This document shows positions 3,727 through 46,735 of a stretch of 64,000 nucleotides of DNA, one piece after another. Positions within the stretch are counted from its first letter, which is position 1, and each line of letters opens with the position of its first letter. The DNA is from Curtobacterium sp. MCSS17_007 (GTDB taxonomy: Bacteria; Actinomycetota; Actinomycetes; Actinomycetales; Microbacteriaceae): the NCBI RefSeq assembly GCF_003234175.2, contig NZ_CP126257.1, forward strand, positions 992,001 through 1,056,000, in the 5' to 3' direction. The position numbers and the translations under genes are program-made. The notes below the pieces were generated by a model. The model had not been told where the DNA came from, searched no databases, and saw nothing but the letters and a program-made list of their open reading frames with translations.

Positions 3727-3753
3727 AGCCGCGGGGAGCACCGACGCTCCCAC

Positions 3754-3766
3754 TAGGCTGGTCGGC
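3754..3766 (+). promoter_or_regulatory. Leaderless-type promoter of the response regulator
   Basis: TAGGCT (3754-3759) sits seven bases before ATG 3767 with no ribosome binding site, the arrangement of a leaderless actinobacterial transcript. The 15-mer AGGCTGGTCGGCATG here is identical to the one before the hydrolase gene at 609-623. Confidence 0.55.
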
Positions 3767-4429
3767 ATGAGCGACGGCCCGGGTGCAGCACGCATCCGGG
3801 CCGTCGTCGTCGACGACGCCGTGCTCCTGCGCGAGGGGCTCGCGCGCGTGCTGGACGAGGCCGGGATCGACGTCGTCGGTCAGTACGCCGACGCCGACAC
3901 GTTCCTCGCCACGCTGCCGCACGACGCCCCCGACGTGGTCGTGATGGACGTGCGGATGCCGCCGACCTTCACCGACGAGGGCGTGCGTGCCGCCGTCGAG
4001 ACCCGCCGCGTCGCCCCCGGCACCGGGGTCCTGCTGCTGTCCCAGTACGTCGAGGCCACCTACGCGGAGGACGTCCTCGCCGCCGGCGCGACGGGCATCG
4101 GGTACCTGCTCAAGGACCGTGTGACCCGGCTCGAGGAGATCGACGACGCCGTCCGCCGCATCGCCGGTGGGGGCACCGTGCTCGACCCCGAGGTCGTCAC
4201 GCAGCTCATGGGACGCCGACGCGACCCGCTCGCCGCGCTGACACCGCGGGAGCGCGAGGTGCTCGGACTCATGGCCGAGGGCCGCACGAACGCCGCGATC
4301 GCCCGCGCGCTGGTGATCGGCACCGGCGCGGTCGAGAAGCACGTGTCGAGCATCTTCGGCAAGCTCGCGCTCGAGGACACCGGTGAGGACCACCGCCGCG
4401 TCCTCGCCGTCCTCGCCTACCTCGGCTGA
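3767..4429 (+). CDS. Response regulator, NarL/LuxR family
   Basis: A 220-aa regulator: an N-terminal receiver domain (phospho-acceptor D61 in VVMDVRMPP, acidic pair in VVVDDA, Lys in YLLKDR) followed by a LuxR-type helix-turn-helix (LTPREREVLGLMAEG to about residue 205). It is the evident partner of the upstream kinase. The receiver surface carries an unusual LLSQYVEATYAED stretch, which is common in this subfamily. Its own TAGGCT element just before the ATG suggests it can be transcribed separately from the kinase. DNA targets are not visible. The coding end lies 13 bp before the GTG of the exporter gene. Confidence 0.93.
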   Translation: MSDGPGAARIRAVVVDDAVLLREGLARVLDEAGIDVVGQYADADTFLATLPHDAPDVVVMDVRMPPTFTDEGVRAAVETRRVAPGTGVLLLSQYVEATYAEDVLAAGATGIGYLLKDRVTRLEEIDDAVRRIAGGGTVLDPEVVTQLMGRRRDPLAALTPREREVLGLMAEGRTNAAIARALVIGTGAVEKHVSSIFGKLALEDTGEDHRRVLAVLAYLG

Positions 4430-6174: not shown

Positions 6175-7341
6175 ATGACCGTCACGCTCTCCCGCCCGCA
6201 CCCGGTACCGACCGGTGCGGTGCCGGCACCCGCAACGCTCCGCCCGCTGCCGCCCGTCGCCGTGCGGTGGCTGCTCCGCGCCGCCTTCGCGCTGCCGTAC
6301 GTCGTCCTCGCGGTGATCGCGTCGCGGATCGCCCCGACCCCGCTCCTCGAGCTCACGGGCAACCAGGTGACCATGGACCGCGCGACCGCAGCGCTCGACG
6401 GCGGCGTCGTGCAGGCCATCGGGCAGCTCTGGCCGCTGCTGTCCGGGGTACTGCTGCGCTTCATGCCGTTCGGGGTTGACGGCGCTGCGGTCCTCGGTGG
6501 CGTCACGGCCGGCGTGCTCCTGCAGCTCCTCGCGCAGGCCATGCTCCGACGTGGGCTGCCGATGCGGAAGGTCGTCGCGTTCACCATCGCCCTCGGTGCG
6601 AACCCGCTCTACGCGTTCGTCGCCCTCAACGACCTGCAGGCGTTCCTCGGCATCGCGCTCTTCGCACTCGCGGTCGTCGACATGGTGCGGTTCTTCGCGT
6701 GGGGCGACACCCAGGCGGGGTTCCGCGCCGGGCTCTCGCTGATGATGTCGACACTCCTCGACCCGATGGGGTTCGTCTACGTCGTCATCGCCGCGCTCGC
6801 GGCGCCGCTCCTCGACCTCGCGCGGCGCGGCCAGCAGGGCGTCCGGCGTGCGAACGTGCTCGTGCTCGTGTTCCCGAGTGCCGCCGTCGCGCTGTCGACG
6901 GCCGTACTCGACGTCATGGTCCTCCACGACCCGTTCGCGGCCCTGCGCGGGTCCATCGACGTCTCCGGGGAGCGTCTCGCCGGCCTGCAGCACCTCTTCG
7001 CCACCGCGGACGGGCTGCTCCTCGTGGCGATGCTCGTGGCCGGGGCGGCACTGGCGCTGCTCGTCGGCCGGCCGGGCGCGATCGCGCTCGTCGCGGCGCT
7101 GTTCGGCGGGATCATCGGCGGGTACGCGATCGGCCTGATCCCCGTCGCAGCAGCGGGCAACGTCTTCGTCACGATGCTCAGCGTCGCCATCGCGATCCTC
7201 CCGCGGGCCGGCAGCCGGGTGACCAGCGCGTTGGTCGTGCTCCTCGCCGTGCTGCAGGTGCCGCTCGCGTGGGCCGCTGCGTTCCAGCGCGAGGTCGTCG
7301 TCCAGTGGATGCACGCCCTGGTCGCGGTGGTGGCCGGATGA
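6175..7341 (+). CDS. Polytopic membrane protein, partner of the downstream glycosyltransferase
   Basis: A 388-aa protein with roughly eight to ten transmembrane helices after a short Pro-rich N-terminus. ATG 6175 has CCGGAGGAG just upstream (spacing about 5), so it is preferred over the long open frame before it. Loop features include HDPFAALRGSIDVSGERLAGLQ. It is not assigned to a family I recognise. The stop codon overlaps the glycosyltransferase start (ATGA), which argues for translational coupling and a joint role, such as polysaccharide export or an acceptor-side subunit. The last helix ends at the coupling point (VQWMHALVAVVAG). Confidence 0.82.
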   Translation: MTVTLSRPHPVPTGAVPAPATLRPLPPVAVRWLLRAAFALPYVVLAVIASRIAPTPLLELTGNQVTMDRATAALDGGVVQAIGQLWPLLSGVLLRFMPFGVDGAAVLGGVTAGVLLQLLAQAMLRRGLPMRKVVAFTIALGANPLYAFVALNDLQAFLGIALFALAVVDMVRFFAWGDTQAGFRAGLSLMMSTLLDPMGFVYVVIAALAAPLLDLARRGQQGVRRANVLVLVFPSAAVALSTAVLDVMVLHDPFAALRGSIDVSGERLAGLQHLFATADGLLLVAMLVAGAALALLVGRPGAIALVAALFGGIIGGYAIGLIPVAAAGNVFVTMLSVAIAILPRAGSRVTSALVVLLAVLQVPLAWAAAFQREVVVQWMHALVAVVAG

Positions 7342-9065
7342 CCGCCGTCGAGCCCCGTGCCGAGGGCAGCCCGACCGTCTCCACGTCGTCGGTCCGCCCG
7401 GCCGTCGTCGCCACCGGCCGCCACCGCGGCGAGGAGACCGACTGGCGGCCGCCGCACCGCTGCTCGGTGCAGCGGCACGTCGACGAGGGGTGGGTCGCGT
7501 CCGCGCGCATCCGCGAGGGCGTGCTCGTCCTGACGAGCGGGCGGTCCGAGCCGGACGTGCTCCGCGCCGCGCTCACCGAGGAGTTCGGCGAGCCCGTCGT
7601 GCTCCGCAGCGCGTCCGAGGCGGACGTCCGCCAGCGCATCGCCTACGAGCTCGAGGAGGAGGTCGCCGACCTCGCCGCCCACGGTCTCGCCCGCACGAAC
7701 CCGGCACTGTCCGCCCGCACCGTGCTGTCCCGGGGCCAGCAGGTCGGCGTCGTCGTCGCGCTGGTGGTGCTCGCCGCCTGCCTGGTCGTGGCGCCGGGGA
7801 CCACCGCCGCCGTGGTGACCGCGGCGCTCTCGCTCGGGTTCCTGGCCGGGATCGTGTTCAAGTTCTGGGTGTCGATGGTCGGCGCCCGTTTCGACCTGGT
7901 CGAGCAGGTGTCGGCGGAGGACGTCACCGCGCTCGATGACGACACCCTGCCCACGTACACCGTGCTGGTGCCCGTCTTCCGCGAGGCGAACATCGTGCAC
8001 GACCTCGTGCGCAACCTCGAGGTACTCGACTGGCCGAAGGACCGGCTCGAGGTCCTCGTGCTCGTCGAGGCCGAGGACCACGAGACCCGCCAGGCCGTCC
8101 TCGACGCCGCACCGCCGGACTGGATGCGCATCGTGATCGTGCCGCCGGGGTCTCCCCAGACGAAGCCGCGCGCCTGCAACGTCGGACTCGCGATCGCGCA
8201 GGGAGAGTACGTCGTCATCTACGACGCCGAGGACCGACCCGACCCGGACCAGCTCAAGAAGGTGTTCCTGACCTTCGACCGCGCCGGTGACGACACCGTG
8301 TGCGTGCAGGCGGCGCTGAGCTACTTCAACGCCGACGAGAACCCGCTGACCCGCATGTTCACGCTCGAGTACTCGTACTGGTTCGACTACATGCTCGCCG
8401 GACTCGACGCCCGCCAGTTGCCGATCCCGCTCGGCGGCACGTCCAACCACTTCCGCACCGACCTGCTCCGCGAACTCGGCGGGTGGGACCCGTACAACGT
8501 CACCGAGGACGCCGACCTCGGCATCCGGGCCTCCGCCGTCGGGTACCGCGTCGCCGTGGTCAACTCCACGACGATGGAGGAGGCGAACACCTCGATCCCG
8601 AACTTCGTCCGGCAACGCTCCCGCTGGATCAAGGGGTACATGCAGACCGCCCTCGTGCACGCACGACGCCCGCGTGCGCTCGTGGCCGAGATCGGCATCC
8701 GTCGTGCGGCCGCGTTCGCGCTGCTCATCGCCGGGACGCCGCTGACGTTCCTCGGCATGCTGCCCGGCATCGTCGTCACGGTCGCGACGCTGGTGCTCCC
8801 GCCCGAGTGGACCGCCCCGGTGTTCCCGGCGCCGGTCCTCTGGCTCTGCGTGCTCGACTTCCTGCTCGGCAACGCGACGATGATCTACCTCACGATGATG
8901 GGGCCCTACAAGCGCGCTCGGTTCGACCTCATGGGGTGGGCGCTCCTCAACCCCGTGTACTGGGTCCTGCACTCGATCGCCGCGTACAAGGGGCTCTGGC
9001 AGCTGATCACCCGGCCGCACTACTGGGAGAAGACGGAGCACGGCCTGACGAAGACGACGGCCTGA
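7338..9065 (+). CDS. Glycosyltransferase family 2 membrane protein with GspE-N-like front domain
   Basis: A 575-aa processive-type GT2 enzyme. Residues about 35-130 form a soluble segment resembling the MshEN/GspE N-terminal fold (CSVQRHVDEGW, then VLTSGRSEPDVLRAALTEEFG), then two helices (about 135-175), then the catalytic domain: TVLVPVFREANIV, the metal-binding YDAEDRPDPDQ (D296-D299), TEDADLG (E390, D391) and the QRSRW signature (426-430). Three or four helices follow. This layout occurs in cellulose-synthase-like enzymes of exopolysaccharide loci. It acts at the cytoplasmic membrane on a nucleotide sugar; the polymer is unknown. It overlaps the upstream membrane-protein gene by four bases. 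Confidence 0.9.
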   Translation: MTAVEPRAEGSPTVSTSSVRPAVVATGRHRGEETDWRPPHRCSVQRHVDEGWVASARIREGVLVLTSGRSEPDVLRAALTEEFGEPVVLRSASEADVRQRIAYELEEEVADLAAHGLARTNPALSARTVLSRGQQVGVVVALVVLAACLVVAPGTTAAVVTAALSLGFLAGIVFKFWVSMVGARFDLVEQVSAEDVTALDDDTLPTYTVLVPVFREANIVHDLVRNLEVLDWPKDRLEVLVLVEAEDHETRQAVLDAAPPDWMRIVIVPPGSPQTKPRACNVGLAIAQGEYVVIYDAEDRPDPDQLKKVFLTFDRAGDDTVCVQAALSYFNADENPLTRMFTLEYSYWFDYMLAGLDARQLPIPLGGTSNHFRTDLLRELGGWDPYNVTEDADLGIRASAVGYRVAVVNSTTMEEANTSIPNFVRQRSRWIKGYMQTALVHARRPRALVAEIGIRRAAAFALLIAGTPLTFLGMLPGIVVTVATLVLPPEWTAPVFPAPVLWLCVLDFLLGNATMIYLTMMGPYKRARFDLMGWALLNPVYWVLHSIAAYKGLWQLITRPHYWEKTEHGLTKTTA

Positions 9066-9084
9066 GCACGACGAGGCCCGGTAC

Positions 9085-9304
9085 GGAGGGGATGACGGGG
9101 ATCGAGCGTCGGCGCAGTGCCAGCTGGAAGGCCGTGGAGGGGATGACGGGGATCGAGCGTCGGCGCAGTGCCAGCTGGAAGGCCGTGGAGGGGATGACGG
9201 GAATCGAGCGTCGGCGCAGTGCCAGCTGGAAGCCCGTGGAAGGGGTGGAGGGGATGACGGGGATCGAGCGTCGGCGCAGTGCCAGCTGGAAGCCCGTGGA
9301 AAGG
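9085..9304 (-). repeat. Four tandem copies of a tRNA-Gly 3'-half-like unit
   Basis: Four units start (GGAGGGGATGACGG on the + strand) at 9085, 9136, 9187 and 9247, with spacings 51, 51, 60 and then 59 to the tRNA. Read in the tRNA direction each unit runs CTTCCAGCTGGC ... TCGATYCCC ... ending in CCCCTCCA, matching tRNA-Gly from its anticodon loop (CTTCCAA) through the T arm to the encoded CCA. The last 22 nt are identical to the tRNA in the third copy and differ by one base in the others. The array lies directly downstream of tRNA-Gly on the same strand, so read-through would transcribe it. Confidence 0.93.
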
Positions 9305-9378
9305 TGGAGGGGATGACGGGAATCGAACCCGCGTGGCCAGTTTGGAAGACTGGGGCTCTACCATTGAGCTACATCCCC
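9305..9378 (-). tRNA. tRNA-Gly (anticodon TCC)
   Basis: Reverse strand. The acceptor stem GGGGATG pairs with CATCCCC, the discriminator is T and CCA is encoded. The anticodon loop is CTTCCAA inside a CCAGT/ACTGG stem, and the T loop is TTCGATT. 71 nt before CCA, normal for tRNA-Gly. A TACGAT element on the reverse strand at 9413-9408 is the likely -10. Tandem copies of its 3' half follow immediately. Confidence 0.97.
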
Positions 9379-9433
9379 GCGCTGCGACTCACGTCCGCAG
9401 CGCCACCATCGTAGCGGACGAACGGCCCCCGAC

Positions 9434-9757
9434 ATGCCATCGAACGTGCTGCCGCAGCCGGGTGACTCCGACACGCGCCGGATCAAGCGCTCCCGGGTGC
9501 TCTCGTTCGTGCTGCTCGCCGTCGCCGCCGTCGTCTTCTCGCTCCGTCCCGAGGTCTTCGGCGACCCGCAGGCCCAGCCCTGGCACGCGCTGCTGCACGT
9601 CTGGCGGATCGTCCTCGGGGTCGGGCTCATGGTCGCCGCGCTCGGGGTGCAGATCGCCGTCGGCCTGCGGTGGCGGCAGGCGCTCAGGCGCGGTGCCGAG
9701 CAGGAACCGTCCACACGCGGCACGCCGCCCGGGAACCAGGCACCGGGGGACCGCTAG
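9434..9757 (+). CDS. Small two-TM membrane protein (107 aa)
   Basis: ATG 9434 to TAG 9757. There are two hydrophobic helices (VLSFVLLAVAAVVFSL, about 22-37, and a second about 52-77) separated by a short loop containing HALLHVWR. The tail is charged and Pro/Gly-rich. No clear ribosome binding site is present, so the start is uncertain. It lies between tRNA-Gly and tRNA-Pro; the tRNA-Pro -10 (TAGACT, 9755-9760) overlaps its stop codon. Small two-TM proteins of this kind are often annotated only as hypothetical. Function unknown. Confidence 0.6.
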   Translation: MPSNVLPQPGDSDTRRIKRSRVLSFVLLAVAAVVFSLRPEVFGDPQAQPWHALLHVWRIVLGVGLMVAALGVQIAVGLRWRQALRRGAEQEPSTRGTPPGNQAPGDR

Positions 9758-9811
9758 ACTCGTCGCGGTCGTGCGTGCCCTCGGGCGTGCGCGGCCACCC
9801 TGGCCCAGTCA

Positions 9812-9888
9812 CGGGGCGTAGCTCAGCTTGGTAGAGCGCCCGCTTTGGGAGCGGGAGGTCGCAGGTTCGAATCCTGTCGCCCCGACCA
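9812..9888 (+). tRNA. tRNA-Pro (anticodon TGG)
   Basis: Acceptor CGGGGCG/CGCCCCG, D arm starting TAGCTCAG, anticodon stem CCCGC with loop TTTGGGA (anticodon TGG), T loop TTCGAAT, A discriminator and encoded CCA. 77 nt. The likely -10 is TAGACT at 9755-9760. It is transcribed towards tig, which begins 36 bp downstream. Confidence 0.97.
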
Positions 9889-9924
9889 GGTCCACTCGAA
9901 CGTCAACCAACAGGAGTACATCCC

Positions 9925-46301: not shown

Positions 46302-46428
46302 GGTCTGCGGCTGATCCGGTCTGCCGCGGCACGGTCCTGCCGTCGGTCGGGTCTGCCGCGGCACGGGTCTGCCGTCGGTCGGGTCTGCCGCGGCACGGGT
46401 CTGCCGCGGCACGGTTCTACTGCCGCAC
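46302..46428. repeat. 16-bp minisatellite between proB and proA
   Basis: Eight units (period 16, one of 15) of GGGTCTGCCGCGGCAC and its variant GGGTCTGCCGTCGGTC, in mixed order, starting right after the proB stop. The end units are degenerate. The GCCGCGGC core is self-complementary. Not a CRISPR: there are no unique spacers. Confidence 0.92.
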
Positions 46429-46735
46429 AGGTCGGCCGCCGGCCGGGAGGCGCGGGGCAGGCCCGCCACGTCGGCCCGCCGGACGACGTGGGTGCGCGAG
46501 ACGCCGCCCACCACGCGGGACACCGTCACCCCGTCGAGACGCCGCACGGTACGGGACCGTCTCGGCGGAGCCGGTCCGTCCCGGACGGACGCCGGCGCCT
46601 CGCGGCGCCCGGGTCGGTGGGAGCACCCCTCGGAGACGTGAGCGGAGTCCGGCACAGGCGCGGCGCCTCCCGGTCCACTCCACAGCTGTGACGCGAGCAG
46701 CGTCACGGGACGGGGGGTCGACCTAGTATCGGACC
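46429..46735 (+). other. Structured region and leaderless promoter before proA
   Basis: No ORF is convincing. It is bounded by CCGGGAGGCGC (46443) and GCGCCTCCCGG (46663-46673), distant inverted arms of about 200 bp. Inside are GTCCGTCCCGGACGGAC and GGCGCCTCGCGGCGCC hairpins. At the end, TAGTAT (46724-46729) stands six bases before ATG 46736 with no ribosome binding site, i.e. a leaderless proA promoter independent of proB. Confidence 0.55.

Follow-up and report, generated by a model that had tools for sequence, protein, structure and literature searches.

The closest described counterpart of the arrangement reported here is rtT (rttR) of the E. coli tyrT/tyrV genes, where tandem repeats, each a copy of the tRNA 3' end and then trailer, likewise stand right behind a tRNA gene. 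In MG1655, three exact copies of the last 19 nt of tyrV lie behind that gene, spaced 178 bp apart, and rttR and tpr are annotated there. To our knowledge, the tyrT/rtT repeats of E. coli have been an isolated curiosity. Two further kinds of sequence resemble partial tRNA genes: attachment sites of tyrosine integrases, such as the annotated attP of mycobacteriophage L5, which matches a similar stretch (nt 17 to 73) of the tRNA that concerns us here, tRNA-Gly(TCC), and tRNA pseudogenes or partial duplications, which are likewise 5'-truncated copies of a neighbouring tRNA. No similar array is described in the titles and abstract openings of papers on tRNA repeats and integrases, tRNA pseudogenes, tRNA-fragment repeats or Curtobacterium tandem repeats.

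The window, by which we mean the whole 64,000-nucleotide stretch of Curtobacterium sp. MCSS17_007 (genome G000) that was analysed, holds a tRNA-Gly(TCC) gene on the minus strand at 9305-9378, behind which four array units run outward to 9084:

9305 to 9378, minus strand: tRNA-Gly(TCC) with encoded CCA (ARAGORN; Rfam RF00005, 71.2 bits)
9246 to 9304, minus strand: unit 1, 59 bp, a spacer that contains CTTCCA and a hairpin (GGC/GCC), followed by the tRNA-Gly 3' end; one mismatch in the last 20 nt; ends in CCA
9186 to 9245, minus strand: unit 2, 60 bp; last 20 nt exactly those of the tRNA; ends in CCA
9135 to 9185, minus strand: unit 3, 51 bp; one mismatch in the last 20 nt; ends in CCA
9084 to 9134, minus strand: unit 4, 51 bp, outermost; two mismatches in the last 20 nt; ends in CCG
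9066 to 9083, no strand: 18 bp that separate the array from the stop codon of a convergent ORF (6699-9065)

Each unit consists of a spacer and ~22 nt of the tRNA-Gly 3' end, and the array is the top-scoring tandem repeat of the 64-kb window (TRF score 330). Judged by eye, the convergent ORF beside it is putatively glycosyltransferase-like, and no terminator- or promoter-like sites were found at 8900-9900 around the array. A second tandem repeat of the window, at 46318-46447 (32 bp x 4.1, GGTCTGCCGCGGCACG..., TRF score 167), has no tRNA link. The original prediction had placed four repeats behind the tRNA-Gly at spacings of 51, 51, 60 and 59, and this layout was confirmed, with starts at 9085, 9136, 9187, 9247 and, for the tRNA, 9306. 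Its statement that every unit ends in CCA is right for three units and wrong for the outermost, which ends in CTCCG; similarly, one identical copy with the others a single base off describes units 1-3 and fails for the fourth (1, 0, 1 and 2 mismatches outward in the last 20 nt). A GACG/CGTC stem thought to close a T-arm-like hairpin proved not to be conserved: in 6 of 12 species the innermost pair cannot form, and there is no two-sided pair change.

The window array is real. Shuffled tRNA ends found a downstream match in only 2 of 6500 trials over 325 tRNA loci, compared to 103 of the 325 loci for real ends in a sample enriched for arrays, and this control rules out a chance match. An assembly artefact is unlikely because G000 is one contig and one-contig relatives (e.g., G007, G010 and G017) carry such arrays. 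Exact or near-exact repeats of a tRNA 3' end directly behind the tRNA, the feature by which rtT is recognized, are present in the window, and the rtT analogy drawn earlier is good in layout. The arrays considered here nevertheless have a period of about 40-71 bp (59, 60, 51 and 51 in the window) as opposed to 178 bp, contain up to a whole tRNA 3' half as opposed to the 19 nt usually given for the rtT unit, and, unlike E. coli tyrT/rtT, stand behind many different tRNAs. With another period and other tRNAs, they are an analogue of rtT and not a member.

We surveyed 66 genomes of the genus, including G000, for copies downstream of tRNA-Gly(TCC), tRNA-Lys(TTT) and tRNA-Leu(CAA), counting copies of the last 20 nt where the best had no more than 4 mismatches and steps were no longer than 75 nt. 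Such copies followed tRNA-Gly(TCC) at 12 of 64 loci (1-4 copies each), in keeping with the prediction that related species would have them at this gene, tRNA-Lys(TTT) at 31 of 65 (1-6 copies) and tRNA-Leu(CAA) at 25 of 65 (1-7 copies), so that 45 of the 66 genomes have at least one array at these loci; these counts leave out two genomes without a Gly locus, one without a Leu locus and one without an ARAGORN-called tRNA-Lys(TTT), and the Gly count also omits the 18- and 19-bp repeat forms of G019 and G020 and one diverged unit in G021. Behind the tRNA-Gly of G020 (L050) lie five ~19-bp repeats of the hairpin part only, and behind that of G019 (L049) lie 18-bp repeats of the tRNA end alone; repeat registers therefore differ at one place. 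In G000 itself, arrays stand behind three of 47 tRNAs examined, namely Gly(TCC), Lys(TTT) and Leu(CAA); a match behind tRNA-Glu(CTC) was rejected because it is the next tRNA gene. A control, tRNA-Pro(TGG), the neighbour of the Gly gene, gave a weak match at 1 of 50 loci, and that one was in another family.

Elsewhere in the family and phylum, no fewer than six other tRNAs also have arrays behind them. We searched up to 398 genomes per pattern for two T arms 45-71 bp apart, a distance normally too tight for two complete tRNA genes. Within the family, 59 of 398 genomes had the pattern (a reversed control pattern, 1); it was also present in 30 of 396 of a phylum sample and in 32 of 396 of an order sample, where many matches were apparently coding. 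Fetching 50 loci yielded arrays behind an ARAGORN-called tRNA in 37 pattern-matched family genomes besides G000; L206 was dropped, as it is not a copy of its own tRNA. Eight of nine fetched phylum loci had copies, at Trp, Ala, Val, Arg-UCU, Arg-CCU, Leu, Met and Ser tRNAs. Matches that resembled conserved coding sequence (e.g., G406, G375, G139, G441 and G444) or abutting tRNA genes were taken as false. Two features of the search may lower these numbers: the pattern detects intact T arms only and therefore misses arrays like that of the window, and the draft contigs of L222, L224, L226 and L366 stop inside the array or no more than ~70 bp behind it, so arrays may be under-counted in drafts. 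Five Arg arrays of genus g71 (L216 and L218-L221) are followed, a few bases past the array, by the near-palindromic CCCTTCGACAAGCTCAGGG, and the start of this motif recurs in the stretch examined for L219.

Units that join the 3' part of the adjacent tRNA to a spacer were found at Gly, Lys, Leu, Arg, Ser, His, Thr, Val, Ala, Trp and Met tRNA loci, with lengths of about 40-71 bp and 1 to 8 copies per array. How much of the tRNA is included varies with the tRNA: some Thr and His units start inside the D stem or close to it, whereas clear homology sets in only at the anticodon loop in Arg-UCU and most Lys units, at the variable region in Leu(CAA) and Ser, and at the T arm in Gly, Ala and some Leu(TAA). 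The idea that the repeats come from a tRNA half fits the arrays of relatives at Lys, Arg(UCU) and Met tRNAs and some of those at Thr and His. In the Gly array, for which it was proposed, only the last ~22 nt of tRNA-Gly are common to all 12 species with an array, and the CTTCCA anticodon-loop match is present in the Gly units of some array-bearing species and missing from others. Unlike tRNA pseudogenes, the arrays are ordered, consist of near-identical units and recur at set tRNAs through genus and family, and one class of them has a fixed base change at position 37.

The best explanation of the arrays, to which we give about an even chance of being correct, is tandem duplication followed by amplification, homogenisation and frequent gain or loss. 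In this scheme, a tRNA 3' part together with a short stretch of trailer would first be duplicated in tandem; the copies would then be amplified and homogenised as the direct repeats slip or recombine unequally; and arrays would often be gained or lost while persisting in a nearly neutral manner, their units probably being transcribed within the tRNA trailer and then removed in processing. First, units within an array are near-identical and spacers differ from species to species, as homogenisation would give. Second, the spacer is repeated past the last unit at p<=0.01 in a small minority of arrays, 16 of 97 tested (2 more were skipped). Nine of these cases are clean, in register from the first base and with no more tRNA end (L134, L144, L159, L174, L187, L188, L207, L213 and L226), three then run into another decayed unit (L115, L156 and L168), and the remaining four (L029, L166, L186 and L229) are not in register. 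In L213 and L226, the spacer match extends as far as the tRNA-derived part and no further, which is the trace expected of a tandem duplication of 3' part plus trailer. A significant copy is missing from the other 81 arrays, including the window's own (p=0.98), for which duplication would be the source by extension. Third, array presence is scattered. A tree of 65 genomes was built from three flanks (2661 columns); along it, presence at the Gly and Lys loci changes 10 and 22 times, compared to means of 11.3 and 21.5 for shuffled labels, and is no more clustered than these; at the Leu locus it changes 14 times (shuffled mean 20.1, minimum 15) and is clustered. G026 has three Gly units and G029 has none, with similar downstream sequence. 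The outermost copy has the most mismatches in four of five multi-unit Gly arrays and ties in the fifth. For G000 and G026, insertion of a spacer plus 3' end fits the data as well as duplication does. The unit-specific bases of Gly units are kept over 12 species, for which a neutral reading gives no explanation.

The transcription of units with the trailer is probable because arrays lie at tRNA genes without a strong hairpin terminator close behind. In G000, a stem of at least 9 pairs lies within 75 nt behind 29 of 47 tRNA genes; the best stem has 5 pairs at Gly(TCC) and 7 at Lys(TTT), and the 9-pair stem at Leu(CAA) sits within its unit. Stems of at least 10 pairs within 75 nt past the array were found at 4 of 112 arrays versus 22 of 35 array-free tRNA loci of G000. 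Array-free copies of the array-bearing loci are also poor in stems (at least 9 pairs at 5/52 Gly, 6/34 Lys and 4/40 Leu loci), which makes terminator poverty a trait of the locus and not a product of the array. Two roles were rejected. A role as replacement terminators is not supported, as array-free tRNA-Arg(TCT) genes do without terminators too (a stem of at least 10 pairs in 3/22). Nor is a role as C-rich Rho-type regions: Gly arrays are C-rich (mean skew 0.35), but the skew is lower in arrays at Lys (0.15), Leu(CAA) (0.07) and Arg(TCT) (0.05), and array-free tRNA-Pro trailers are also C-rich (skew 0.21).

One regularity is left unexplained by neutral duplication. We scored position 37 in units that keep the anticodon loop and match at least 7 of 9 neighbouring positions, with 37 itself ignored. 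All 108 alignable units of five tRNAs have C where the tRNA has A: 52 of Lys-UUU, 45 of Arg-UCU (two of which adjoin a tRNA whose own base reads N), 6 of Thr-UGU, 4 of Arg-CCU and 1 of Met-CAU. We take these five tRNAs to read ANN codons and to carry t6A37. The 108 units are not independent of one another, and the rule was formulated post hoc; they come from nine tRNA-by-family combinations (Lys, Arg-UCU and Thr in f1; Arg-UCU and Thr in f8; Thr in f15; Arg-UCU in f37; Arg-CCU in f45; Met in f86). In a small comparison group of one Gly, two Ser (both doubtfully aligned) and two Val units, the base is G or A, that is, C in 0 of 5; with looser alignment, one Gly and one Trp unit also show C. Units of the t6A class that have no loop were not counted (the first unit of the Arg-CCU array, L386 of Arg-UCU, and L334 and L370 of Ser-GCU), and the window's own array, being of tRNA-Gly, is outside the C37 cases. 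By eye, avoidance of a promoter box was discarded as the cause because TAAT is absent at Arg-CCU, and avoidance of stop codons because many periods are not multiples of 3. C37 would be predicted alike by selection against t6A recognition or ribosome binding and by a copying process that misreads the modified base.

The first of these possibilities leads to a reading that we consider doubtful, in which units act as RNA, as transcribed 5'-truncated tRNA mimics or processed pieces that bind t6A synthase, the ribosome or a processing enzyme, with C37 tuning the binding or avoiding harm. The C37 class is consistent with such a role, with 108 of 108 units against 0 of 5 at Gly, Ser and Val, as is the variation of Lys units at positions 33-35 around a constant C37, and some His and Thr units (L207, L400, L398 and L399) retain the anticodon arm and part of the D stem. 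Because C37 removes the U36-A37 mark that the t6A machinery reads, mimics exposed as RNA could have been selected against confusion or competition with the real tRNA. The fullest form of this idea, in which mimics transcribed behind terminator-poor tRNA genes and held at C37 by selection would make up a tRNA-linked RNA system and not junk, is a shade more doubtful again. A structured non-coding RNA was rejected on covariation and folding tests: there are no compensatory changes at 12 predicted pairs in the Leu units of 22 arrays or at 7 pairs in the Gly units of 12 species, where the near-constant 3' end leaves covariation little room to appear, and folding energy is barely under that of shuffles (mean z -0.53, 94 units). 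The scattered presence of arrays among genomes also argues against an RNA role, as does the Rfam scan of the window, in which only the tRNA family, and no other, passed the cut-off. The analysis bore out none of the roles put forward in the original prediction: small RNAs, a decoy, a recombination target or selfish duplication.

Integrated elements offer another origin, which we think improbable. The arrays would then be relics of elements that used the tRNA 3' half as attachment site, the units being att remnants; that a recombinase or homologous exchange multiplied these remnants is improbable to the same degree. The Gly and Lys loci are 3'-side hotspots of gene replacement, with 21 flank clusters downstream and 1 upstream of tRNA-Gly(TCC) in 64 genomes and 13 downstream (65 genomes) and 2 upstream (64 genomes) of tRNA-Lys. 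The Leu locus is not, with 1 downstream (64 genomes) and 8 upstream, and yet it has arrays. Isolated att-like copies of the tRNA do exist, and with the L5 attP they speak for such an origin. A partial tRNA-Gly(TCC) 3' half at G000:C1:1236745-1236801 (L069, ~3746-3802; RF00005, 35.1 bits), 235 kb from the gene, looks like the att relic of an integrated element. Partial copies that begin at the anticodon loop and run to the 3' end also occur in G027 (L067, G027:C33:153396) and G057 (L068, G057:C16:238254), and the flank behind the G027 copy resembles that behind the intact tRNA of G016, which suggests that the tRNA has served as an integration site in G027. The 81 of 97 arrays that are missing a significant trailer copy would also fit att remnants, but the nine with an in-register spacer past the last unit would not. 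Moreover, in contrast to att sites of tyrosine integrases, the arrays comprise several short tandem copies with short spacers and have no integrase gene in their vicinity. In G000, the three PF00589 genes are all more than 150 kb from the three arrays, and for 13 arrays of nine other genomes the nearest are at ~40 kb (G385), 44 kb (G017) and 55 kb (G215), with every match in G077 and G440 (two of the 13 arrays) on other contigs. None of 167 matching phage records covers 80% of the tRNA plus array, the array matches no plasmid in the search, and the exact unit pattern is absent from the viral contigs searched. With no unit source in viral contigs, phages, plasmids or integrase positions, an origin from an insertion element or attP was rejected, and a plain attachment-site relic fails for want of a nearby integrase and a carrier element.

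Finally, we regard as highly improbable an RNA-templated origin, in which reverse transcription of the tRNA and its trailer misread the modified A37. C37 is confined to tRNAs of the t6A37 class and G000 has one reverse transcriptase domain match, but PF00078 occurs in only three of 16 array-bearing genomes (G000, G070 and G010), the other 13 disfavouring a misreading copy process. T-loop A58, a base that is often methylated in bacteria of this kind, has not changed in the Lys units of Curtobacterium that were examined; arrays found by the T-arm pattern are uninformative here because the pattern demands A58.

We conclude that these arrays are a recurrent, labile, rtT-like arrangement that most likely arises by tandem duplication; they resemble the known rtT kind but have shorter units and involve many tRNAs, and part of them share one strong regularity, C37, for which duplication gives no explanation. 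Genus- and family-wide arrays of short units behind varied tRNAs make the multiplication of tRNA ends testable by comparison, and their natural presence or absence and variation in copy number are material for asking by what route and for what reason this happens. As a precise and falsifiable lead, the C37 rule connects a repeat in DNA with a class of tRNA modification and calls for either selection on RNA or an unusual copying mechanism.
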